From NCBI RefSeq assembly GCF_000422885.1, contig NZ_KE383942.1, forward strand, positions 499,353 to 563,352: a DNA stretch of 64,000 nucleotides, read 5' to 3'. Shown here one piece after another: positions 11,413 to 23,419 of this stretch (the stretch's first letter is position 1; each line of letters begins with the position of its first letter). Made by a program: the position numbers and the translations under genes. The DNA is from Ottowia thiooxydans DSM 14619 (GTDB lineage Bacteria > Pseudomonadota > Gammaproteobacteria > Burkholderiales > Burkholderiaceae_C). The notes under the pieces are model-generated. The model made no database searches, had not been told where the DNA came from, and was given only the letters and a program-made list of their open reading frames with translations.

Positions 11413-14400
11413 ATGTTCAAGTGGCTTCTCGATAACAGCCTGGCCAACCGATTGCTGGTGATCATCGCCAGCGTGGTGCTCATGGCCTATGGTGCATTCA
11501 CCCTTTCGCGTACACCGGTGGATGTGTTCCCGGATCTCAACAAACCCACCGTGACCATCATGACCGAGGCGGGGGGGATGGCTGCGGAGGAGGTGGAGCA
11601 ACTCATTACCTTTCCGCTGGAAACGACAATGAATGGACTGCCCGGAGTGGAGTCTGTGCGCTCCACTTCTTCGGCGGGGCTGTCGTTTCTCTATGTCACG
11701 TTCAACTGGAGTACGGACATTTTTCGCGCGAGGCAGTTGGTGTCAGAGCGCCTTTCAGCCATGGAAGAAGGCTTGGCTGAAGGAGTGGTTCCGCGCATGG
11801 GCCCCATCAGCTCGGTCATGGGTGAGATCATGCAGATCGCGATTCCGGTCGATCCGCAGAAGATCAGCCCAATGGCGGTGCGGGAATATGCAGACTGGGT
11901 ATTGCGCCCCCGCTTGCTCTCCGTACCGGGTGTGGCTCAAGTGATTCCGATTGGCGGGGAGGTGCGGCAGTTCCAGGTACAGCCGAACACCGCACGGATG
12001 GCCGAATTGGGCATCACGCACGATCAGCTTGAGGCCTCGCTCAAAGGGTTTTCCGCCAATACCTCGGGCGGTTTCCTGGAGCTGAACGGCAGGGAATATC
12101 TGATCCGCAATCTGGGCCGCACTTCGCGGTTGGATGATCTGAAGAACTTGGCGGTGAGCGCGACCAAGGGCCAAGCGATCTTGTTGCACCAGATCGCGGA
12201 TGTGGCCTTTGCTGCAGCGATCAAGCGCGGCGATGCGGGTTTTGAAGGCAAGCCCGCCGTCATTCTGGGCATTCAGAAGCAGCCCACCGCGGACACCATC
12301 GGGTTGACCGCCTCCATTGAGGACGCGCTTGCCGGGCTCAACGCCTCGCTACCCGTGGGTATGGAAAAGCCGCGCGTTACGTTCCGACAGGCCAGCTTTA
12401 TCGAAGCCTCGATCACCACTCTGCAAGGCAAGTTGATAGGTGCTTCGGTATTTGTAGCGGTGATTCTGTTTTTCTTCCTTGGCACGCTCCGGCCCACCAT
12501 CATCGCGTTGACCGCGATACCCGTCTCGATTTTCATCACGGCGCTGGTTTTCCGCTACTTCGGCCTGTCCATCAATACGATGACGCTGGGTGGCCTGGCC
12601 ATCGCGATTGGTGGCCTCGTGGACGATGCCGTGGTGGGGGTGGAGAACGTGCTGCGCCGCCTGAAGGAGGATAGGCTCAAGAACCCTGAGCAGCGCTTGA
12701 GCGCCAAAGAGATCGTGAGCCGCGCGACGATGGAGGTACGTTCGGCCATTCTGTACGCCACGGTGATCATCGTGCTGGTGTTTATTCCGCTGTTCGCGCT
12801 GCCGGGATTGGAGGGCAAGCTCTTTGTGCCATTGGGTATCGCTTTCGTGGTCTCCACCTTGGCCTCGCTGGTGGTCTCAGTAACCATCACGCCCGTGCTG
12901 AGTTACTTCCTGCTTCCCGGTATGAAGAATCTCGATCATGGCGACACCAAGGTGCTGGCCTGGCTGAAAGCGCGCTATCGAGGCAGCTTGCAGGCCGTAC
13001 TGGATCGCCCAAGGGCCGCGCTTGCTGCGGCGTGTATTGCCGTGGTGGCTGCTGTGGCTGCAGTGCCGTTCTTTCCCACCACCTTTTTGCCACCATTCAA
13101 CGAAGGGACCTTGCTGATAGGTGTGCGCCTGAACCCCGGCGTGACGCTGACGGAGAGCTCCCTGTTGGCGCGCCAGGCAGAGGTACTGGTGAGCAAGGTG
13201 CCGGAGGTCACGCACGTTGGCCGCCGCAGTGGCCGTGCGGAGTTGGATGAGCATGCCGAAGGCGTGCATGTGAGCGAGCTTGATGTGGGTCTCAAACCGG
13301 CCTCTGAGCTGACGCGCACCATGGACGAGATCAAGGCTGATATTCGGGCACGGCTGGTTAACTTGCCGGCGGCCATTGAGATCGGTCAACCTATCTCGCA
13401 CCGTATTGATCACATGCTTTCCGGAGTACGCTCGCAGATCGCCATCAAGATCTATGGCGAAGACCTGGATGCTTTGCGCGGGCAAGCGGATTCGCTGCGT
13501 CAGCGCTTGGCAACGATTCCGGGTATTGCAGACTTGCAGATTGAGAAGCAGGTACTCGCGCCTCAGATCAAGGTGCGGGTGGACTACGCTGCTGCGGCGC
13601 AGTATGGTGTTCCTGCGCCGCAGATCTTGGCCACGCTGCAGGCCTTGGTGGAGGGTGAGAAGATCACGCAGATCGTGGAAGGGGGTCGGCGCTTCGCGTT
13701 GGTGGTGAAGCTACCGGAATCGGCGCGGTCGATCGAAGGCCTGAGCCAGATTTTGATCGAGACTCCGGCGGGACGTATTCCGTTGTCAAAAGTGGCAACG
13801 ATTGAAGACGGCGACGGCCCCAACCAGATCAGCCGAGATGATGGTAAGCGGCGCATCGTACTGTCGGCCAACGCCTCGGGCCGAGCGCTTTCAGAGATTG
13901 TGGCGGACATCCGTGCGATCGTCGCGGAGACCAAGCTGCCAGAAGGGCACTTCATTACCCTGGGTGGTCAGTTTCAGGCTCAAGAGGAAGCATCGCGGCT
14001 TGTCGGCGTGCTGTCTGTGGTCTCGCTGATGTTGATGTTTGTGGTGCTCTATAGCCGCTACAAATCCACCACGCTCTCGGCGTTGATCATGGTGAACATT
14101 CCGCTGGCGCTTGTGGGCGCGGTGATCGGCTTGTGGCTTTCCGGACAACCACTTTCCGTGGCTGCGTTGGTGGGCTTCATTACGCTGGCGGGAATCTCGG
14201 TGCGCAACGGCATCCTGAAGATCAGCCACTACATCAATCTGATGCGCTTCGAAGGCGAGAGCTTTGATCAGAAGATGATCGTGCGCGGTTCGCTTGAAAG
14301 GCTCTCTCCTGTGCTGATGACTGCGCTGGTGACCGCGTTCGCGTTGGCGCCGCTTTTGTTCGAGGCCGAGCGGCCCGGTACGGAAGTGCTGCATCCCGTA

Positions 14401-14532
14401 GCGGTGGTGATTTTCTCCGGCCTGATCAGCTCCACTCTCCTCGACACCTTCCTCACGCCCGTCATGTTCTGGCTGTTTGGCCGTAAGGACGCGGAGAAGC
14501 TGCTGACTGATAAGGATGCTGAGGCGCTATGA
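11413..14532 (+). CDS. czcA: HME-RND heavy-metal efflux pump (CzcA/CusA family)
   Basis: This 1039-residue proton-driven RND pump has twelve predicted membrane helices and two large periplasmic loops. The N-terminus (FKWLLDNSLANRLLVIIASVVLM...TPVDVFPDLNKPTV) is typical of the heavy-metal exporter branch. The transmembrane-4 motif reads AIGGLVDDAVVGVEN (398-412). Compared with the CzcA motif DFGxxxDGAxxxVEN, the first acidic residue is Ala398, D404 and E411 are kept, and D405 replaces Gly. The porter loop contains GRRSGRAELDEHAEGVH and SHRIDHMLSGVRSQIAIK. The metal range therefore cannot be taken from CzcA; the symbol is by family only. Its TGA overlaps an ATG at 14529, but the next gene more likely starts at 14634. 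Confidence 0.85.
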   Translation: MFKWLLDNSLANRLLVIIASVVLMAYGAFTLSRTPVDVFPDLNKPTVTIMTEAGGMAAEEVEQLITFPLETTMNGLPGVESVRSTSSAGLSFLYVTFNWSTDIFRARQLVSERLSAMEEGLAEGVVPRMGPISSVMGEIMQIAIPVDPQKISPMAVREYADWVLRPRLLSVPGVAQVIPIGGEVRQFQVQPNTARMAELGITHDQLEASLKGFSANTSGGFLELNGREYLIRNLGRTSRLDDLKNLAVSATKGQAILLHQIADVAFAAAIKRGDAGFEGKPAVILGIQKQPTADTIGLTASIEDALAGLNASLPVGMEKPRVTFRQASFIEASITTLQGKLIGASVFVAVILFFFLGTLRPTIIALTAIPVSIFITALVFRYFGLSINTMTLGGLAIAIGGLVDDAVVGVENVLRRLKEDRLKNPEQRLSAKEIVSRATMEVRSAILYATVIIVLVFIPLFALPGLEGKLFVPLGIAFVVSTLASLVVSVTITPVLSYFLLPGMKNLDHGDTKVLAWLKARYRGSLQAVLDRPRAALAAACIAVVAAVAAVPFFPTTFLPPFNEGTLLIGVRLNPGVTLTESSLLARQAEVLVSKVPEVTHVGRRSGRAELDEHAEGVHVSELDVGLKPASELTRTMDEIKADIRARLVNLPAAIEIGQPISHRIDHMLSGVRSQIAIKIYGEDLDALRGQADSLRQRLATIPGIADLQIEKQVLAPQIKVRVDYAAAAQYGVPAPQILATLQALVEGEKITQIVEGGRRFALVVKLPESARSIEGLSQILIETPAGRIPLSKVATIEDGDGPNQISRDDGKRRIVLSANASGRALSEIVADIRAIVAETKLPEGHFITLGGQFQAQEEASRLVGVLSVVSLMLMFVVLYSRYKSTTLSALIMVNIPLALVGAVIGLWLSGQPLSVAALVGFITLAGISVRNGILKISHYINLMRFEGESFDQKMIVRGSLERLSPVLMTALVTAFALAPLLFEAERPGTEVLHPVAVVIFSGLISSTLLDTFLTPVMFWLFGRKDAEKLLTDKDAEAL

Positions 14533-15412: not shown

Positions 15413-16615
15413 TTAGTAAAGGAGATAGGGCGCGCGGATTTCTATCCACGCAGATTCGTCAGGCCGAGTGATCGCTTCAAGATCAGCGGGGGTGGCGCCA
15501 GGATCGTCTACCCACTCGCGCAGTAGCTCGCTGCCATTGATAAGGTCAATGGAGAGCCGGCCGGTTTCATACTCGTACGCGAAATCGCGCCACAGGGGAT
15601 AGTCTGGCGCTTGTTTACGCAAAGCCTTGAAAGCCAATGATTGCAGCCGCCAGGGTTTGAATGCCTCGTGCTTGTAATGAGTGGAATCTTCCACGTGTAT
15701 CTGCACGCCCGCACAAAGTTTGCCCACGTGCTTGTGGAAAGTTGGCTCGAACCAGCATTCGCGCAGCACACAGCCCTCTAGCCATTCGGGGGCCATTGCG
15801 CGCATGTCGTTTAGTAGCCGGCCTGTGTCTATACCCGGCGCGCCAAACAGCTCGAGTGGTCGCGTCGTGCCACGGCCCTCGGAGAGGGTCGTGCCTTCCA
15901 ACATCACGGTTCCCGCATAGGCACGGGCCATGGAGAGATTGGCCGCGTTGGGGCTAGGGTTCACCCAGCTGCGCTCGCTGGGCCATCCAAACCCAGGAGC
16001 GGCGGTGGGCTGCCATCCGTCCATTTTGATCACGCGGTATTCCAGCTGAAGCCCCAGCGTATCGATGAACCAATGACCCAGCTCGCCCATGGTCATGCCG
16101 TGGCGCATGGGCATCGGGCCTGCTCCTACAAAGCTTTCCCAACCTGCTCGCAAGGTCAAGCCCTCAACCGGACGCCCTGCTGGGTTGGGACGATCCAGCA
16201 CCCATACCGCCTTGCCATGAGCCGAGGCCGCTTCAAGCACATAACGAAGCGTAGTGATGAAGGTGTAGATGCGGCAGCCGAGATCCTGCAGGTCCACCAG
16301 GAGCGTGTCGAAGCTGCCCATCATGGCGTCGGTGGGGCGGCGCACCTCTCCGTACAGGCTAAAGACAGGAATACCGAGTTTTGGGTCAACGTAGTCGGGC
16401 GACTCCACCATGTTGTCCTGCTTATCACCGCGCAGGCCATGCTGTGGTCCGAACGCAGCCGTGAGCTTGATTTCCGGCAGTGCCGCCAGCGCATCGAGTG
16501 AATGAGTGAGATCGCGGGTGACAGACGCAGGGTGCGCCAGCAGGGCCACGCGGCGGCCGATCAGGGGCGCGCGCAAGGCCGGATCGTTTAGTAGGCGTTC
16601 AATTCCGAAATTCAT
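15413..16615 (-). CDS. DUF1343 protein, NamZ-type exo-beta-N-acetylmuramidase
   Basis: This 400-residue DUF1343/GH171 protein belongs to the family whose Bacillus member NamZ removes terminal MurNAc from peptidoglycan fragments. Recognisable segments are FGPQHGLRGDKQDNMVES, SLYGE, DLQDLGCRIYTFITTL, LDRPNPAGR, EGTTLSEGRGTTRPLE and a C-terminal ITRPDESAW. No signal peptide is visible, so it probably acts in the cytoplasm on recycled muropeptides; many family members are exported. Its start overlaps the stop of the DOMON-like gene by 4 bp. Confidence 0.85.
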   Translation of the reverse strand: MNFGIERLLNDPALRAPLIGRRVALLAHPASVTRDLTHSLDALAALPEIKLTAAFGPQHGLRGDKQDNMVESPDYVDPKLGIPVFSLYGEVRRPTDAMMGSFDTLLVDLQDLGCRIYTFITTLRYVLEAASAHGKAVWVLDRPNPAGRPVEGLTLRAGWESFVGAGPMPMRHGMTMGELGHWFIDTLGLQLEYRVIKMDGWQPTAAPGFGWPSERSWVNPSPNAANLSMARAYAGTVMLEGTTLSEGRGTTRPLELFGAPGIDTGRLLNDMRAMAPEWLEGCVLRECWFEPTFHKHVGKLCAGVQIHVEDSTHYKHEAFKPWRLQSLAFKALRKQAPDYPLWRDFAYEYETGRLSIDLINGSELLREWVDDPGATPADLEAITRPDESAWIEIRAPYLLY

Positions 16616-17340
16616 GATGTTGAGAATGAGGCTGTCCAGCCAGTTTTTCGATGGAAGTCAGGTTTGGCATCGGGATGATGCAAAGCCCAGTAGCTCAGGT
16701 GACCCTCCAGGAGGCTGTCGGACTTGGAAATCGCCGGCTGCAAATGGGCCGCAGCGGTCCATTTTTCACGGTCTTTTTGACCCATAGCTAGGCTATGGGC
16801 CTGCAAATCCCGTGAAAACTGTCCTCGCTGGCGCCCATTTTCGCTATCGGCGCTCCAAGTCCGACAGCCTCCTAGCGTCTCTATGACTGCTGACAAGCCG
16901 AGCTTGAGAGTTTGACCGGGTAGTGCTTCTGGCAGCGGCAGCCAGGCCTCAAGAGCAAGGGTTTGAGGCGAGAGCGACATCGCGATGGCTAGCGGTGCAG
17001 TCGGCACACCTGGCTCATGGCGCACACGCTCATCACTGAAGGCGTATGCAGCCCATTGCCCGGAGGGTGAAAGGTTGAATTCGCGGTAACCACTTTCGCC
17101 GGGCCGGTGGATGAAGGCTTCAAAGCAGGTGTGCCGCCAAAGGTCATCGGCCGCTTCAGGCCTTTTCACGGGCGGAGGTATGCGCAGTTGAGGGGTATCG
17201 CCTTGCAACAAGTACTGAACCAGCACGCCTGACTGTCCGTTCCGGGTTTGTGGATGCGCGGCGGCAGTCAATGCCTGCACCGCCCTGCAGGGTGTGAGCG
17301 GGTGCGCGCTGAGTGTATGAATGAGAGGCTGTGCCGTCAT
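16612..17340 (-). CDS. DOMON-like domain protein interrupted by an in-frame palindromic insert
   Basis: This 242-residue protein matches the bacterial DOMON-like family: LRIPPPVKRPEAADDLWRHTCFEAF, GYREFNLSPSGQWAAYAF and a final SYWALHHPDAKPDFH. Proteins of this family may bind a ligand such as haem or sugar; the function is unknown. Residues 157-211 (GGCRTWSADSENG through SKSDSLL) do not belong to the family. They are encoded exactly by a 165-bp palindromic repeat. Removing those 55 codons rejoins AVIETL to EGHLSYWAL, the expected continuous sequence. The frame is kept, so a protein with a foreign loop may be made, though its activity is uncertain. Confidence 0.78.
   Translation of the reverse strand: MTAQPLIHTLSAHPLTPCRAVQALTAAAHPQTRNGQSGVLVQYLLQGDTPQLRIPPPVKRPEAADDLWRHTCFEAFIHRPGESGYREFNLSPSGQWAAYAFSDERVRHEPGVPTAPLAIAMSLSPQTLALEAWLPLPEALPGQTLKLGLSAVIETLGGCRTWSADSENGRQRGQFSRDLQAHSLAMGQKDREKWTAAAHLQPAISKSDSLLEGHLSYWALHHPDAKPDFHRKTGWTASFSTS
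16709..16873. repeat. 165-bp palindromic (MITE/REP-like) element inside a gene
   Basis: The ends are perfect 20-bp inverted repeats, AGGAGGCTGTCGGACTTGGA (16709-16728) and its complement (16854-16873). The inside is an imperfect long hairpin with arms around CAAATGGGC and TTTTCACGG, centred on CCCATAGC-TAG-GCTATGGG (16781-16799). There is no coding capacity of its own. The length is exactly 55 codons and the element contains no stop in the host frame. It looks like a small non-autonomous mobile repeat; no transposase relative is in the window and no target duplication is evident. Confidence 0.8.
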
Positions 17341-17403
17341 GACCCGTATTTTGTCAGGGGCGAGGAGCCCATCTGAGTCTGTGCCCGTTCTTCAAGCGTC
17401 GTC

Positions 17404-17443
17404 ATGTCATCAATCCTTCATAAATATGACATTGTTCTGTCAA
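17404..17443 (+). promoter_or_regulatory. Tandem Pho box (PhoB-like binding site)
   Basis: Four 7-bp half-sites follow each other with an 11-bp period: ATGTCAT (17404), CCTTCAT (17415), ATGACAT (17426) and CTGTCAA (17437), with A/T-rich 4-bp spacers CAAT, AAAT and TGTT. This matches the PhoB consensus CTGTCATAAAT as tandem direct repeats. A plausible -10 (CAACAT, 17454-17459) lies about 10 bp downstream, where a PhoB-dependent promoter would have it, and 54 bp separate the box from the ATG of the first gene. It predicts phosphate-starvation control of the following operon. Confidence 0.75.
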
Positions 17444-17496
17444 GGCGCCGGGTCAACATCTGCAGCAATGGTGAATACCCCGCAAGGAGAAAGAAG

Positions 17497-18351
17497 ATGA
17501 AGGAACTACCCACACCGACCTTTGCATTGTCGCCCTCGGCGCACCCCGCAGCATTGCCTCGGGGGTCGCTTCATCAAAGCAGCCAAAGGGCGGTTGTGGA
17601 GCGGCCTGCAGATGGCGGCGGGCAAGGGATTCAAGTGGCCTGGGCGCGTCACCAAGATGAAGTAAGGCAAGCCCAGCGGCTGCGCTACGATGTTTTTGCA
17701 GGTGAAATGGGTGCTCGCCTTACCACCACGCTAGCTGGACATGATATCGATCTGTTCGACGATTTTTGTGAACACCTGCTGGTGCGCAGCGAGGCCACTC
17801 AGGAAGTGATTGGTACTTACCGGGTCCTCACGCCCGTTCAGGCCAGGCGTGTGGGCAGCACCTACAGCGATACCGAATTTGACCTCACACGCCTGCGCAC
17901 ATTGCGCCCGCGCATGGTGGAGTTGGGCCGCAGTTGCGTTCACCCGGATCATCGTCACGGTGGCGTCATCATGGCTCTGTGGGGAGCGCTGGCCGAATTC
18001 ATGGTGCGCAACCAACTTGACACGATGATTGGCTGCGCCAGCATCCCCATGCTGCACGGCGGCGCCGTGAGCGGAGACGTGGCGGCCAGTATCTGGCGGC
18101 AGGTCAGCTCCACCCACATGGCGCCTATAGAGTGGCATGTGCGCCCGCGTCTGGCATTGCCTGTGGAACGCCTTGACGGTAGCCTCCAGGTGGAACCGCC
18201 AGCCTTGATTCGCGGCTATCTCCGTCTGGGCGCCAAAGTGCTGGGGCCACCGGCCTGGGATCCGGATTTCAACACCGCCGATCTGCCCATGCTCATGCGC
18301 ATCGCTGATTTGCCGGCGCGCTATCGCAAGCACTTTCTGGGATCCACCTGA
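17497..18351 (+). CDS. OlsB-like N-acyltransferase (GNAT fold)
   Basis: The protein has about 284 residues from the ATG at 17497, preceded by AAGGAGAAAG; an upstream in-frame ATG at 17404 lies inside the Pho box and is rejected. Family features in order are LRYDVFAGEMGA (about residue 65), DDFCEHLLVR, VIGTYRVL, MVELGRSCVHPDHR, ALWGALAEF, GCASIPML and ALIRGYLRLGAKV. The last is typical of OlsB, which adds a 3-hydroxyacyl chain to ornithine to make lyso-ornithine lipid. The partner O-acyltransferase OlsA is not adjacent. Related GNAT proteins make other acyl-amino acids, so the acceptor is not proven. It leads an operon with a PlcP-like phosphoesterase and a glycosyltransferase. Confidence 0.78.
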   Translation: MKELPTPTFALSPSAHPAALPRGSLHQSSQRAVVERPADGGGQGIQVAWARHQDEVRQAQRLRYDVFAGEMGARLTTTLAGHDIDLFDDFCEHLLVRSEATQEVIGTYRVLTPVQARRVGSTYSDTEFDLTRLRTLRPRMVELGRSCVHPDHRHGGVIMALWGALAEFMVRNQLDTMIGCASIPMLHGGAVSGDVAASIWRQVSSTHMAPIEWHVRPRLALPVERLDGSLQVEPPALIRGYLRLGAKVLGPPAWDPDFNTADLPMLMRIADLPARYRKHFLGST

Positions 18352-18353
18352 TC

Positions 18354-19331
18354 ATGGTCGTGCCAACCCATCCACACTTTGGACAGATGCTGCGCGATCA
18401 AAGCCAGTGGCTTGATTCGCCTCCATCCAGTTCCGGTATGCCGGCAGCATTCTTGATGGACCGTGGACCAGCCTTTGCGGCGCTACAGGGCGCTGGGGGT
18501 GGGGGAGATGACGAGGCTGCGGAGCCCACTTCTCCTGAAATGGCGCGCTACCGCGCCATTTTTATTTCAGATCTTCACCTGGGAACGCCGGGTTGCCAGG
18601 CCGGGCCCTTGCTGGACTTTCTGAAAGACCACACCAGCCAGACACTCTATCTTGTGGGCGACATCATCGACGGCTGGCAATTGCGCCGGCGCTGGTACTG
18701 GCCTCAGTTGCACAACGACGTCGTGCAAAAACTTCTGCGCCGCGCGCGCAAGGGTTGCCGGGTGGTTTTCGTTCCGGGCAATCATGATGAGTTCGCTCGC
18801 GCCTTCGTGGGTTTGAACTTTGGTGGCATCGAAGTGCTGGAAGATACCGTACACGTTACCGCAGATGGAAAACGCCTTTGGGTTACGCACGGCGACTATT
18901 TCGATGGCGTGATCCAGTGCGCCAAGTGGCTGGCCTATGTGGGCGACTACGCCTACGAGTTCACGCTGCGGGTGAACCGGCATTTCAACAGCTTGCGAGC
19001 TCGCCTGGGACTGCCTTATTGGTCGCTATCGAGCTACCTCAAGCACAAGGTGAAGAAGGCGGTGAACTACGTCAGCGATTTTGAGTCGGCGGTGGCTGCA
19101 GAGGCCAGGCGGCTTGGCCTGGATGGTGTGGTTTGCGGCCATATTCACCACGCCGAGATCCGCAGCATCAACGGCACGCTTTATTGCAACGATGGAGATT
19201 GGGTGGAAAGCCGCAGCGCTTTGGTGGAACACCACGATGGCCGGCTGGAACTGATCTACTGGCAGCCTACGCCGGAGCCGGCTGCCTCCACACAACAGGT
19301 GCCAGCACCCACCGAGGCGGAACACGCATGA
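18354..19331 (+). CDS. PlcP-like metallophosphoesterase (LpxH-related)
   Basis: This calcineurin-type phosphoesterase has all metal motifs: FISDLHLG (D, H), LVGDIIDGW (D), VPGNHDE (N, H), VTHGDYFDG (H) and CGHIHHAEI (GHxH). The segment RRRWYWPQLHNDVVQKLLRRARKG and the closing NDGDWVESRSALVEHHDG match the clade usually annotated as UDP-2,3-diacylglucosamine diphosphatase. That clade contains the phosphate-starvation phospholipase C PlcP of Sinorhizobium. The first 60 residues are poorly conserved, so the true start may be the in-frame ATG before ARYRAIFISDLHLG. It lies 2 bp after the OlsB-like gene and overlaps the glycosyltransferase by ATGA. Expected role: cleaving phospholipids to diacylglycerol so the phosphate can be reused; an LpxH activity remains possible. 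Confidence 0.78.
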   Translation: MVVPTHPHFGQMLRDQSQWLDSPPSSSGMPAAFLMDRGPAFAALQGAGGGGDDEAAEPTSPEMARYRAIFISDLHLGTPGCQAGPLLDFLKDHTSQTLYLVGDIIDGWQLRRRWYWPQLHNDVVQKLLRRARKGCRVVFVPGNHDEFARAFVGLNFGGIEVLEDTVHVTADGKRLWVTHGDYFDGVIQCAKWLAYVGDYAYEFTLRVNRHFNSLRARLGLPYWSLSSYLKHKVKKAVNYVSDFESAVAAEARRLGLDGVVCGHIHHAEIRSINGTLYCNDGDWVESRSALVEHHDGRLELIYWQPTPEPAASTQQVPAPTEAEHA

Positions 19332-20383
19332 AGCTCGCACTCATCACCGATGCATGGTTGCCGCAAGTCAACGGCGTGGTGACCACGCTGGTCGAGCTGG
19401 TGCACGGATTGCAAGCCAGAGGCGATACGGTAGATGTCATCGAACCAGGCTTGTTTCGCACCAGGCCTTGCCCTGGCTATGCCGGCATTGATCTCGCGAT
19501 ACGTCCGGGCCGGGCACTTGCCCGTATGCTGGATGAAGCGCAGCCTGATGCGGTCCACATTGCCACCGAAGGCCCGCTGGGTTGGGCCGCGCGACGCTAC
19601 TGCCTGCGCCACGGCCTGGCATTCACAACGGCGTTTCACACCAAGTTCCCGGAAATCCTGAATGCGGCGGTGAAGGTGCCCTTGTGGTTGGGATATGCGC
19701 TGTTTCGCCATTTTCATCGGCCTTCGGCAGGCGTCATGGTGCCTACGCGCGGTGTGGCGGATATGTTGGCCACGCGCGGCTTCCGCAACCTTCGCTACTG
19801 GACGCATGGGGTCGATACGAACCTATTTGCCTTCTCCCCTCAGTCGGGTGAGTATCCGCCGTTGGGGCACCTGGCTCGGCCAGTTCACTTGTTTGTTGGC
19901 CGGGTGTCCTACGAGAAGAACATTGAAGCCTTTCTTCAACTCGATCTGCCCGGCACCAAGGTGGTTTGCGGGGTGGGTCCTATTGAAGAGCGGTTGCGCG
20001 AGCGCTTTCCGCAGGTGTGCTGGCTGGGTGTGTTGCCGCGCGAAGAGTTGTCGCGCGTCTATGCGGCCGCAGACGTCTTTGTTTTCCCTAGCCGCGCAGA
20101 CACGTTTGGCCTGGTGATGCTTGAAGCCATGGCCACAGGTACTCCGGTGGCAGCCTTTCCGGTGGATGGCCCCCTGGAGGTGCTGGCCGCTGTGCCGGGC
20201 CAGCCGTGCGGTGGTTTCATGCATGTTGACTTGGCCCAGGCTGTAAGCGCCGCCCTGGAAATTCCGCGAGAAGACGCCAGAGCCCATGCGCTGCGCTTCG
20301 ACTGGAATCAAGCCGCACTGCTTTTTGCTAGCTTTTTAGTACCTGCGCGCACCAACGCCCCTGCGTTAAAGCCCGCCTCGTGA
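19328..20383 (+). CDS. GT4 glycosyltransferase, Agt-like
   Basis: This retaining glycosyltransferase of family GT4 has about 351 residues. The N-terminal Rossmann domain starts LALITDAWLPQVNGVVTTL; the acceptor side has TAFHTKFPE and the nucleotide-sugar site has VGRVSYEKNIEAFL, ADVFVFPSRADTFGLVMLEAMATGTPVAAF (ESR/EX7E-type loop). The ATG at 19328 overlaps the phosphoesterase stop; a longer frame from 19133 lies inside that gene and is rejected. In alphaproteobacteria and marine bacteria a GT4 enzyme (Agt) next to plcP glycosylates diacylglycerol during phosphate starvation. The same pairing here suggests glycolipid synthesis. The sugar donor cannot be told. Confidence 0.82.
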   Translation: MKLALITDAWLPQVNGVVTTLVELVHGLQARGDTVDVIEPGLFRTRPCPGYAGIDLAIRPGRALARMLDEAQPDAVHIATEGPLGWAARRYCLRHGLAFTTAFHTKFPEILNAAVKVPLWLGYALFRHFHRPSAGVMVPTRGVADMLATRGFRNLRYWTHGVDTNLFAFSPQSGEYPPLGHLARPVHLFVGRVSYEKNIEAFLQLDLPGTKVVCGVGPIEERLRERFPQVCWLGVLPREELSRVYAAADVFVFPSRADTFGLVMLEAMATGTPVAAFPVDGPLEVLAAVPGQPCGGFMHVDLAQAVSAALEIPREDARAHALRFDWNQAALLFASFLVPARTNAPALKPAS

Positions 20384-20415
20384 TACAACGTCAAACGATC
20401 TAATCTATTTCTTCG

Positions 20416-22494
20416 ATGCCTCCGTCAGCTTCTGATTTGCCAGCCGTTTTGCAGAAATATCCGCTGCAAGACCGTGACCTGAGTATTCTCGCGTTCAACC
20501 ATCGCGTCATGCATTGGGCCGAGCGCCCTGATGTGCCCTTGCTTGAGAGATTGCGTTATCTGTGCATCGTCTCTTCCAATCTCGATGAGTTCTTTGAGGT
20601 GCGAGCGGAGTCTCATATCTCGGCCTGGCGAGAAACTTCCAGAGTCGATGCAGGCCTGCGCGATATGCTGGATGTCGCGCACGCCCTGGTAGAGCGGCAA
20701 TATGCCATTTTCAATGGTTCGCTGATGCGGGCGCTGGGTGAAAAAAAGGTGCGAATCCTGTCCCACCTGGATCGCAATGAGGCGCAGCGGCGTTGGGTGC
20801 GTGATCTTTTCCTGCGGGAAGTGAAGCCGCTGCTGGTACCGGTAGCGCTTGATCCGGCACATCCGTTTCCTCAGGTGGCCAATAAGTCTTTGAACTTCAT
20901 CGTTCAACTCAAGGGCAAGGACGCCTTTGGCCGTAGCAATGAGATCGCTATTGTGAAAGTGCCGCGCGTGCTGCCGCGCGTGCTTCGCATGCCAGAGAAA
21001 GTCGCTGGGGGAGAGACGCTTTTTGTCATGCTCTCCAGCGTCATCCGTGCGCACCTGGCGGAGTTGTTCCCCGGGCGCGAGGTGGGGGAGTTTTCTCATT
21101 TTCGTGTCACCCGGCACTCGGATCTCTGGGTGGACGAGGAAGAAGTCAAGAACCTGCGTACTGCGCTTCAGCAAGGCCTGCATCAACGCCACTATGGCGA
21201 GGCTGTGCGGCTGGAGGTGTCTTCGGCCTGTTCGGATGAGCTGGCGCAGTTTCTTCTCCGGCAATTCAAGCTGCCCCCAGAGGCGATGTTCAGAGTGCAA
21301 GGCCCAGTGAATCTGGTGCGCCTGCAGCAGTTGATCCAACTCGTGGACGCACCAGAGTGGCTTTTCCCACCTTACCAGCCCAGCTATCCGGCGCAGCTCA
21401 AAGTGGCTGCAGGAGAATCGGTGTTTGATCGTCTGCGCAGTGGTGATGCGTTGATTCATCAGCCGTTCGAAAGCTTTGACGGTGTGATCGACTTTCTTCG
21501 CCAAGCAGTTCACGACCCGGCCGTTTTAGCTATCAAACAAACCATCTATCGCACTGGCAATGACAGTCGAATGATGGATCTGTTGATCGAGGCTCAGCGG
21601 CGCGGAAAAGAAGTGACTGCGGTGGTCGAGCTCAAGGCTCGATTCGATGAAGAAGCCAACATCAACTGGGCAGAGCACCTGGAGCGAACCGGCGCGCAGG
21701 TGGTTTATGGCGTGGTTGGACTCAAAACGCACGCCAAGATGCTCCTGGTGACTCGGCGGGAGGGGCGAAACCTGCGGCGCTACGGGCACCTCTCCACCGG
21801 GAATTACAACCCGCGGACGGCCTCTCTCTACACCGATCTGAGTTATCTCACCGCTGATGCACGCCTCACGGCTGATATGGAGCAGCTTTTCGTGCACCTG
21901 GCCAGCCATAGCCGGCTACCACGGATGCAGCGCATGCTTTTGGCGCCATTTACTCTGCACAAGCGCATGATTGGCAAGATTCGGCAAGTCGGCGAGGCAG
22001 CCCGACGCGGCCAGCCAGCACGCATTGTTGCCAAGATGAACGCCTTGACCGATCAAGCCCTGATTGAGGCCTTGCTCGTCGCCGGGGACGCCGGGGCGCA
22101 GATTGATCTCATCGTCCGAGGCGCTTGCATGTTGCCTGCGCATCTGACACAAAACATCCGTGTTCGCAGCATCATCGGGCGCTTCCTTGAGCATTCTCGG
22201 GTTTTCTATTTTCTGGCGGATGAGAAAGAAGAGCTCTGGCTGTCCAGTGCGGACTGGATGAACCGCAATATGCTGCGCCGGGTGGAAACAGCATGGCCGG
22301 TCACGGACCCGGCGCTGCGCCAACGTATCGTGGATGAATGCTTGGTCGCATGCTTGCATGATGCCCGCGATGCGTGGGTCATGGGGGAGGGCGGCAAGTA
22401 CCGCCTGGTGGTGCCTGAAGGCGGCGTTCCAGGGCATGGATCGCAAGACGCATTGATGGCGCGCTACGCAGCGCATCGAGGGAGTACAAAATAA
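20416..22494 (+). CDS. ppk1: Polyphosphate kinase 1
   Basis: This 692-residue enzyme transfers the gamma phosphate of ATP to a growing polyphosphate chain. The N domain (LQDRDLSILAFNHRVMHWA, SSNLDEFFEVRAE) is followed by the head domain and the two catalytic C domains. KTHAKMLLV gives His439 and YGHLSTGNYNPRTA gives His458, the counterparts of E. coli His435 and the autophosphorylated His454. The gene lies 32 bp after the glycosyltransferase on the same strand, so it probably shares the Pho-regulated transcript. It overlaps sixA by one base. ppk1 belongs to the Pho regulon in many bacteria. Confidence 0.95.
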   Translation: MPPSASDLPAVLQKYPLQDRDLSILAFNHRVMHWAERPDVPLLERLRYLCIVSSNLDEFFEVRAESHISAWRETSRVDAGLRDMLDVAHALVERQYAIFNGSLMRALGEKKVRILSHLDRNEAQRRWVRDLFLREVKPLLVPVALDPAHPFPQVANKSLNFIVQLKGKDAFGRSNEIAIVKVPRVLPRVLRMPEKVAGGETLFVMLSSVIRAHLAELFPGREVGEFSHFRVTRHSDLWVDEEEVKNLRTALQQGLHQRHYGEAVRLEVSSACSDELAQFLLRQFKLPPEAMFRVQGPVNLVRLQQLIQLVDAPEWLFPPYQPSYPAQLKVAAGESVFDRLRSGDALIHQPFESFDGVIDFLRQAVHDPAVLAIKQTIYRTGNDSRMMDLLIEAQRRGKEVTAVVELKARFDEEANINWAEHLERTGAQVVYGVVGLKTHAKMLLVTRREGRNLRRYGHLSTGNYNPRTASLYTDLSYLTADARLTADMEQLFVHLASHSRLPRMQRMLLAPFTLHKRMIGKIRQVGEAARRGQPARIVAKMNALTDQALIEALLVAGDAGAQIDLIVRGACMLPAHLTQNIRVRSIIGRFLEHSRVFYFLADEKEELWLSSADWMNRNMLRRVETAWPVTDPALRQRIVDECLVACLHDARDAWVMGEGGKYRLVVPEGGVPGHGSQDALMARYAAHRGSTK

Positions 22495-22955
22495 TGGACC
22501 TGATCCTGTGGCGCCATGCAGAGGCGCAAGAGCCCGAGGGCGATATGACCGATCTCGAGCGCCCCCTGACACGCCGGGGCGACAAACAGGCTGCACGAAT
22601 GGCCGCCTGGCTCGATCGGCAGCTTCCCGAAGGCACTCGTATTCTGTGCAGCCCTGCTGTTCGTACGGAGCAGACCGTGCGGGCGCTGGCCAGAAAATAC
22701 AAAATTCACGATGAATTGCGCCCCGGTGCATCTCCTGAGCAACTGCTGCAATTGGCGGGCTGGCCAAGTGCTAAAGCGCCCGTATTGATCGTGGGCCATC
22801 AACCTACACTTGGTGAGACCATCTCCCGCTTGCTGCAACTGACCGAACCCGAATGCTCGGTCAAAAAAGGCGCTGTCTGGTGGCTGCGCAGTCGCGAGCG
22901 AGAGACAGCCCAGCAGACGGTGGTGGTGACGGTGCAAACGGCGGAATTGCTGTGA
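22494..22955 (+). CDS. sixA: SixA-type phosphohistidine phosphatase
   Basis: This 153-residue histidine-phosphatase-superfamily protein begins directly with the catalytic RHAE motif (R7, H8, E10). The second histidine is in VGHQPTLGE (H102), and ERPLTRRGDKQA is the usual SixA segment. SixA removes phosphate from phosphohistidine on signalling or phosphotransferase proteins. The ATG shares a base with the TAA of ppk1, so the two are translationally coupled. Since PPK1 works through a phosphohistidine, a functional link is possible but not shown. Confidence 0.88.
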   Translation: MDLILWRHAEAQEPEGDMTDLERPLTRRGDKQAARMAAWLDRQLPEGTRILCSPAVRTEQTVRALARKYKIHDELRPGASPEQLLQLAGWPSAKAPVLIVGHQPTLGETISRLLQLTEPECSVKKGAVWWLRSRERETAQQTVVVTVQTAELL

Positions 22956-23005
22956 CTACTCTCTTGATCCACGGTTGATCCGCTCCACGCATCGCTGATC
23001 AAATT

Positions 23006-23419
23006 TCAATCGCTTTTGGTTCCCAGCACCAATTGCGTTTGAGTGACCAGCGCGCAGAGCTTGCCTTCGGCGGATCGGATACTGGTCTGCCACACCTGAG
23101 TCGTACGGCCGCGGTGAAGTGCAATGGCTTCACCGGTCACCACGGAGTTGAGCTTGGCCGCTCCGATGAATTTGGTACTCGAATCCGTGGTGGTGGTGGT
23201 TTGGCCTTTCCCAAGATTCATGAAGGTTCCCACCGCGCCCAGTGTATCGGCGAAGGCCATGTATGCGCCTCCATGGAGGATGCCTCCAGCGGTACAGAGA
23301 TCGGATCGCACCGTCAATTCCGCGAGAACGCGCTCGCCTGTGGCCTCAATCAGCCGAACACCCATAAGGCCCGGAAACAGTGGATCAAGGATGTGTTGAA
23401 CATCACTAAGTACCAGCAC
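23006..23419 (-). CDS. PaaI-family hotdog thioesterase
   Basis: This 137-residue single hotdog-fold protein has CTAGGILHGGAYMAFADTLGAVG near residues 42-64, the HGG segment and following catalytic acidic residue of PaaI-type acyl-CoA thioesterases. A beta sheet (TKFIGAAKLNSVVTGEAIALHRGRTTQVWQTSI) follows. It hydrolyses acyl- or aryl-CoA; the substrate is unknown. It converges on sixA with a 50-bp gap and is divergent from the CHRD lipoprotein gene. Confidence 0.88.
   Translation of the reverse strand: MLVLSDVQHILDPLFPGLMGVRLIEATGERVLAELTVRSDLCTAGGILHGGAYMAFADTLGAVGTFMNLGKGQTTTTTDSSTKFIGAAKLNSVVTGEAIALHRGRTTQVWQTSIRSAEGKLCALVTQTQLVLGTKSD

Follow-up and report, generated by a model that had tools for sequence, protein, structure and literature searches.

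Gene content and organisation of the locus

This analysis concerns a run of five genes, olsB-plcP-agt-ppk1-sixA, and the array of PhoB-binding (Pho) boxes in front of it, in Ottowia thiooxydans DSM 14619. The run lies in a 64 kb stretch, 499353-563352, of contig NZ_KE383942.1 (the window, to which all other positions refer), taken from a genome of 7.05 Mb (78 contigs, 99.37% complete). It is very probably a PhoB-activated operon for phosphate saving by membrane-lipid exchange, in which phospholipids would give way to lipids free of phosphate (Table 1).

The first three genes are tightly packed, as a first-pass annotation of this DNA had noted and as both the sequence and its open reading frames (ORFs) confirm. 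The olsB-like gene ends at 18351 and the plcP-like gene starts at 18354, leaving a gap of 2 nt, and the start of the agt-like gene (19328) overlaps the end of plcP via ATGA. On the same strand, ppk1 begins 32 bp past the agt-like gene and is itself overlapped by sixA by 1 nt. The annotation had described a three-gene stretch beginning at 17404; the trio is real, but its first gene starts at 17497 and the run extends through ppk1 and sixA to 22955. An ATG at 17404 is in frame with the olsB-like gene, yet it falls within the first Pho half-site. The sequence AAGGAG at 17484-17489 precedes the ATG at 17497, and the N-terminus read from there (MKELPxPTF-like) is common to most aligned relatives in the family. 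For these reasons, the start was set at 17497.

A promoter and terminator scan of 17200-23100 found no sigma-70-type promoter. The sole terminator-like site on the + strand is at 22186, within ppk1, and such sites were fewer than in shuffled sequence (4 vs 5.4). Given the same-strand packing and the lack of a + strand terminator-like site outside ppk1, a single operon of all five genes is likely.

Table 1. Features of the putative operon and its upstream region (positions in the 64 kb window).
Feature	Position	Strand	Evidence
Pho-box array, four PhoB-like half-sites, 11-bp spacing	17404..17443	+	Shuffles; best site in window; conserved in many relatives
Possible -10 element, CAACAT	17454..17459	+	10 nt after last half-site; weak match, putative
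olsB-like ornithine (amino acid) N-acyltransferase, 284 aa	17497..18351	+	Pfam Acetyltransf_5, 119 bits; NCBIfam OlsB best; start corrected
plcP-like intracellular phospholipase C (metallophosphoesterase), 325 aa	18354..19331	+	Identity to S. meliloti and P. aeruginosa PlcP; trees vs LpxH
agt-like GT4 diacylglycerol glycosyltransferase, 351 aa	19328..20383	+	Pfam GT4 domains; 46% to P. aeruginosa glycosyltransferase beside PlcP
ppk1, polyphosphate kinase 1	20416..22494	+	TIGR03705, 832.2 bits (cut-off 465.85)
sixA-like phosphohistidine phosphatase	22494..22955	+	TIGR00249, 72.7 bits (slightly below cut-off 74.5)

Identity of the encoded proteins

The plcP-like protein is 52% identical to PlcP of Sinorhizobium meliloti and 56% identical to that of Pseudomonas aeruginosa, both references being database copies rather than the exact strains of the published work. 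The gene of the P. aeruginosa reference adjoins a glycosyltransferase gene and is located between cyaB and azoR3, a placement like that of PA3219 by the neighbouring gene numbers. The two references are 47% identical to each other, and 46% identity has been reported between PA3219 and S. meliloti PlcP (PMC8528852; this and the other papers are cited from excerpts).

Many PlcP-type proteins carry the database label UDP-2,3-diacylglucosamine diphosphatase, and the Ottowia protein gives weak matches to models of LpxH. Were the middle gene to encode LpxH, an essential lipid A enzyme, the cluster would be one of envelope housekeeping. However, the scores of 45.9 and 51.8 bits are under the respective cut-offs of 190.35 and 134, and the S. 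meliloti PlcP copy matches the same models similarly poorly (38.9 and 38.1 bits). The true LpxH of this genome is encoded elsewhere, on another contig (213 bits), and E. coli LpxH shares 28% identity with the plcP-like protein over 123 columns. The first-pass annotation had proposed placing the phosphoesterase against the PlcP and LpxH clades, and when 22 PlcP-like and 16 LpxH rows were put in one tree it fell outside the LpxH clade, with the two groups split at 100/100. A long-branch warning was raised for five LpxH rows and for the P. aeruginosa row. Removing those five LpxH rows and rebuilding the tree (22 vs 11) gave 100/100 for the split once more; among the LpxH rows, the one from this genome had then become a long row. 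The sub-cut-off scores, the separate true LpxH and the two trees together rule out LpxH as the identity of the middle gene, and the housekeeping reading is extremely improbable. Judged by sequence comparison, the phosphoesterase is PlcP. Its metallophosphoesterase motifs are conserved, ten residues (D73, H75, D103, D106, N143, H144, D145, H179, H263 and H265) being identical in 10/10 aligned rows; these presumably act as ligands.

The agt-like protein belongs to the GT4 family by its domains and is close to a characterised Agt, its identity to the glycosyltransferase encoded beside PlcP in P. aeruginosa extending over 351 columns; the Agt-like assignment of the first-pass annotation is upheld by this homology. 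In P. aeruginosa, the pathway in which this enzyme partners PlcP yields glucosyl- and glucuronosyl-diacylglycerol (PMC8528852).

Among N-acyltransferase families, OlsB is the best match for the protein encoded by the first gene. The two best NCBIfam models are both OlsB (157.5 and 144.6 bits), followed by OlsF at 39.1 and GlsB at 19.7 bits. The protein is 33% identical to its S. meliloti counterpart and is the sole Acetyltransf_5 protein found in the genome, all of which bears out its earlier description as OlsB-like. Among solved structures, none matches the OlsB profile. The N-terminal stretch of about 40 residues (17497-17620 in the window) is poorly conserved in the family, although it mostly starts MKELPxPTFxLSP-like, and it is shorter in several relatives outside the family, their starts being as chosen by script (first 80 alignment columns).

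The earlier annotation had also placed the three lipid steps together. The olsB-, plcP- and agt-like genes do adjoin, but OlsA, the second step of ornithine lipid synthesis, is not in the operon. One of the five PF01553 proteins in the genome has OlsA as its best family. This candidate is encoded on another contig, next to a gene identified by eye as dihydroorotase-like, and four-half-site scores across its 3.3-kb locus peak at 16, i.e. no Pho array comparable with that before olsB.

The upstream Pho-box array

The four tandem PhoB-like half-sites recognised in the first-pass annotation (ATGTCAT at 17404, CCTTCAT at 17415, ATGACAT at 17426 and CTGTCAA at 17437) hold up against shuffled sequence. 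Scored as matches out of 28 to four copies of CTGTCAT at an 11-bp period, the array reaches 22/28. When the 200 bp before the gene were dinucleotide-shuffled 1000 times, no shuffle reached 22 and the best scored 19. Across the two strands of the whole window the array is likewise the top four-half-site match, ahead of its own shifted registers (19 and 18) and of any separate site (17 at most). The standard two-box Pho pattern, allowing up to three mismatches, was found 4 times vs 4.42 expected, i.e. at chance level. Because that pattern is not rare, the evidence rests on the four-site array and its conservation. A hexamer at a spacing similar to that of the candidate -10 element was noticed by eye in several relatives.

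The genome encodes PhoB (323.6 bits, cut-off 296.2), 3.6 kb after pstS on one contig, and CTGTCAC-GGTT-ATGTCAC is located upstream of that pstS. With an upstream box, its conservation and a genomic PhoB, the locus qualifies as a predicted member of the Pho regulon, even though the array is not present in every relative.

Upstream of the operon lie genes for an AcrB-family (RND) pump (11413-14532) and a NamZ-type exo-N-acetylmuramidase (15413-16615), and for the gene divergent from the operon (16612-17340) neither Pfam nor NCBIfam gave a match at E 0.001. Rfam gave no match anywhere in the window.

Gene order and Pho boxes in relatives

In the family, 60 genomes were sampled, that of O. thiooxydans included. 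A PlcP match is present in 43, and all 43 loci were examined, the sequence available on either side being limited to about 1.5 kb in most cases. The order olsB-plcP-agt occurs in 16/43 (again counting O. thiooxydans) and olsB-plcP without an adjoining agt in 2/43; no olsB was seen beside plcP in the remaining 25, one of which is at a contig end.

A second set, of named loci, consists of the best 80 of at least 594 confirmed relatives, ranked by similarity to the OlsB of the window, and is therefore biased towards near kin. By their titles, 61 of the best 80 belong to Comamonadaceae or its genera, 18 come from proteobacteria that are uncultured or loosely named, and one from Sulfuritalea, which agrees with the earlier view of the host as a betaproteobacterium. 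Gene order was taken from protein matches, automatic ORF calls, which were disturbed by antisense ORFs, serving only to locate PhoX genes. The trio is present in 35 of the best 80 named loci, and a further 13 have olsB-plcP without agt directly after, although one of these ends 0.3 kb after olsB. The other 32 have no plcP directly after olsB, and in 22 of them olsB is followed by ppk1-sixA with gaps of 99-472 nt. Under a stricter distance rule 32/80 loci are trios, 30 of which continue into ppk1 and sixA. The order olsB-plcP-agt-ppk1-sixA is the same in loci titled Rhodoferax, Limnohabitans, Polaromonas, Curvibacter, Ramlibacter and others. Two olsB loci occur in one Rhodoferax metagenome-assembled genome (L098 and L151; PKWM01000022.1 and PKWM01000042.1); each has a strong Pho array, and in neither does plcP directly follow olsB. 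On a plasmid of Mitsuaria sp. 7 (a 263-kb record, 212189-215255, L072), plcP-ppk1 has no olsB or agt annotated beside it.

The array test was passed by 12/16 family loci (≤12 of 1000 shuffles); two further loci were skipped, the olsB start not being alignable. In the relatives that pass, the array lies at -79 to -137 from olsB. The four that fail (L006, L007, L010 and L016) have a PhoX match directly upstream of olsB in the same direction. Among the best 80 named loci, 53 pass (≤2 of 200 shuffles) and 27 fail. PhoX is just upstream of olsB in 4/80 (L077, L080, L086 and L087), none with an array score of 17 or more, and its identity was confirmed by Pfam (PF05787) in the two named relatives checked. 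Relatives with phoX upstream and no array before olsB look as if olsB had joined a phoX operon.

The survey of gene order across Burkholderiales envisaged by the first-pass annotation was carried out on an order-level sample of 120 genomes and brought out other arrangements. With olsB in 82/120 and plcP in 58/120, both are present in 50 genomes. They lie within 10 kb of each other in 12/50, from 8 families (the lists being matched by eye), where about 0.25 would be expected by chance for 4-Mb genomes by our own arithmetic. The order olsB-plcP-agt is shared by O. thiooxydans with one genome outside the family, and plcP-agt-olsB is found in three genomes, from two families. In two genomes that belong to one family, the genes sixA-olsB-...-ppk1-plcP-agt share a strand and are separated in places by gaps of a few kb that hold other genes. 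In three genomes of a single family plcP is followed, about 3.5 kb on, by a distant glycosyltransferase (34-35%) and olsB. Of the last two, one has olsB then plcP without an agt match, and in the other the two genes are on opposite strands. In two genomes outside the family an array is located directly before plcP (20/28 and 24/28), 24 nt from the start codon, and in another a weaker one (18) precedes olsB, a score of 17 also occurring there inside a gene. No array was placed in the other outside-family genomes among these 12 loci.

Some of these arrangements could suggest a primary role in phosphate storage and recovery, with a ppk1-sixA-plcP core along which the lipid genes ride. Four family loci (L022, L023, L024 and L027) have plcP-ppk1 without an olsB or agt match within about 1.5 kb on each side, the Mitsuaria plasmid is similar, and the 22 named loci with olsB-ppk1-sixA dispense with an intervening plcP. 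We consider this quite unlikely: the Pho array and the PhoX neighbours are located at olsB regardless of what comes after it, and in two genomes of another family plcP-agt directly follows an array, and the 9.5 kb read there contains no ppk1.

Relation to known phosphate-responsive lipid systems

Operons pairing plcP with a GT4 glycosyltransferase gene are known from P. aeruginosa (PA3219-PA3218), Methylosinus and SAR11, and resemble the plcP-agt part of the Ottowia locus (PMC8528852, PMC9239053, PMC4796936). The P. aeruginosa pair has a Pho box, and these systems make glucosyl- and/or glucuronosyl-diacylglycerol in low phosphate (same sources). Unlike at the Ottowia locus, no olsB is named in those operons in the excerpts, nor among the six types of plcP context that PMC4796936 lists in its section 13. 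The olsBA operon of P. aeruginosa is a separate one (PMC9804370), whereas olsB is here joined to plcP-agt; plcP and olsBA of Pseudomonas are both under PhoBR, from separate loci (PMC5082522, PMC9804370). Betaproteobacterial plcP has been mentioned in connection with Methylotenera transcripts (PMC9239053).

As here, olsB lies behind a Pho box in Burkholderia and Acinetobacter (PMC7814305, PMC11828411). The olsA gene of Acinetobacter baumannii is unlinked and not phosphate-regulated (PMC11828411), and the OlsA candidate of O. thiooxydans is likewise unlinked. In the excerpted text plcP is not mentioned for Acinetobacter olsB (PMC11828411), nor phospholipase C for Burkholderia olsB, the neighbourhood of which is stated, as data not shown, to be usually conserved in Burkholderia sensu lato (PMC7814305). 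The excerpt of a study of serpentinite lipids (PMC10667739) contains nothing on these genes.

No published description of a joint olsB-plcP-agt operon was found among the papers listed in the literature searches, subscription journals and preprints being outside the search. The first-pass annotation had not known of a description of this gene order; the order is recurrent in the family, as the counts above show. While plcP-agt pairs and Pho-box olsB are already known separately, the joint, recurrent arrangement and its ppk1-sixA tail look undescribed in the literature covered. The observation itself is real and conserved: enzymes of known kinds are brought together in a new arrangement, and the interest lies in the grouping.

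Proposed function and significance

Under low phosphate, PhoB would bind the four half-sites and switch on olsB-plcP-agt and, by read-through, ppk1-sixA. PlcP would split phospholipids into diacylglycerol and a phosphate head group, and Agt would add a sugar, glucose or glucuronate, to the diacylglycerol. OlsB would attach an acyl chain to ornithine, or to an amino acid like it, and the resulting lyso-aminolipid would be finished by the unlinked OlsA candidate. Membrane phospholipid would in this way be replaced by glycolipid and aminolipid. The production of both lipids and the existence of one transcript are what we infer from the sequence.

Several observations weigh against this scheme. 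The trio was not seen in 27/43 family genomes with PlcP, and is therefore not obligatory; at the order level, 38/50 genomes lack an olsB-plcP pair inside 10 kb. Only 4 of the 27 named loci that fail the array test have an upstream PhoX, which leaves 23 without either. Ppk1 has no obvious part in lipid exchange, and the OlsA candidate, at 125.3 bits, is below its model cut-off of 300. The OlsB scores are well under the curated cut-offs (157.5 vs 350 and 144.6 vs 320), short of equivalog level. Distance alone may explain this, as the model names (Rhodobacter, Brucella) suggest alphaproteobacterial seeds, but with scores below these cut-offs ornithine is a putative substrate of the OlsB-like protein.

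The first gene could then make another aminolipid (lysine, glutamine or glycine lipid), and the operon would supply glycolipid together with that aminolipid. The low scores and the modest identity to the S. meliloti protein would fit, as would the ability of A. baumannii OlsB to make both ornithine and lysine lipids (PMC11828411). Even so, this is unlikely: the OlsB models are by far the best of those compared, and OlsB of Burkholderia, in the same order, carries out the first step of ornithine lipid synthesis (PMC7814305).

Polyphosphate overplus follows phosphate starvation. Ppk1, if co-produced with the lipid enzymes, would bank phosphate as polyphosphate once supply returns, the roles of Ppk1 and SixA here being putative. 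We put forward tentatively, as a possibility, that a five-gene Pho module, which recurs in Comamonadaceae and is regrouped elsewhere in Burkholderiales, couples two lipid replacements to polyphosphate synthesis through one transcript.

The literature found on PlcP-type lipid replacement concerns alphaproteobacteria, Pseudomonas, methanotrophs and marine bacteria. If the present reading is true, a single operon of Comamonadaceae would serve both replacement lipids, and the response could be tested via one promoter and a few deletions. The label UDP-2,3-diacylglucosamine diphosphatase would be corrected for PlcP-type proteins. Lipid replacement would also be tied to polyphosphate storage, such that phosphate would leave the membrane in famine while the transcript that brings this about also prepares the cell to store it later.

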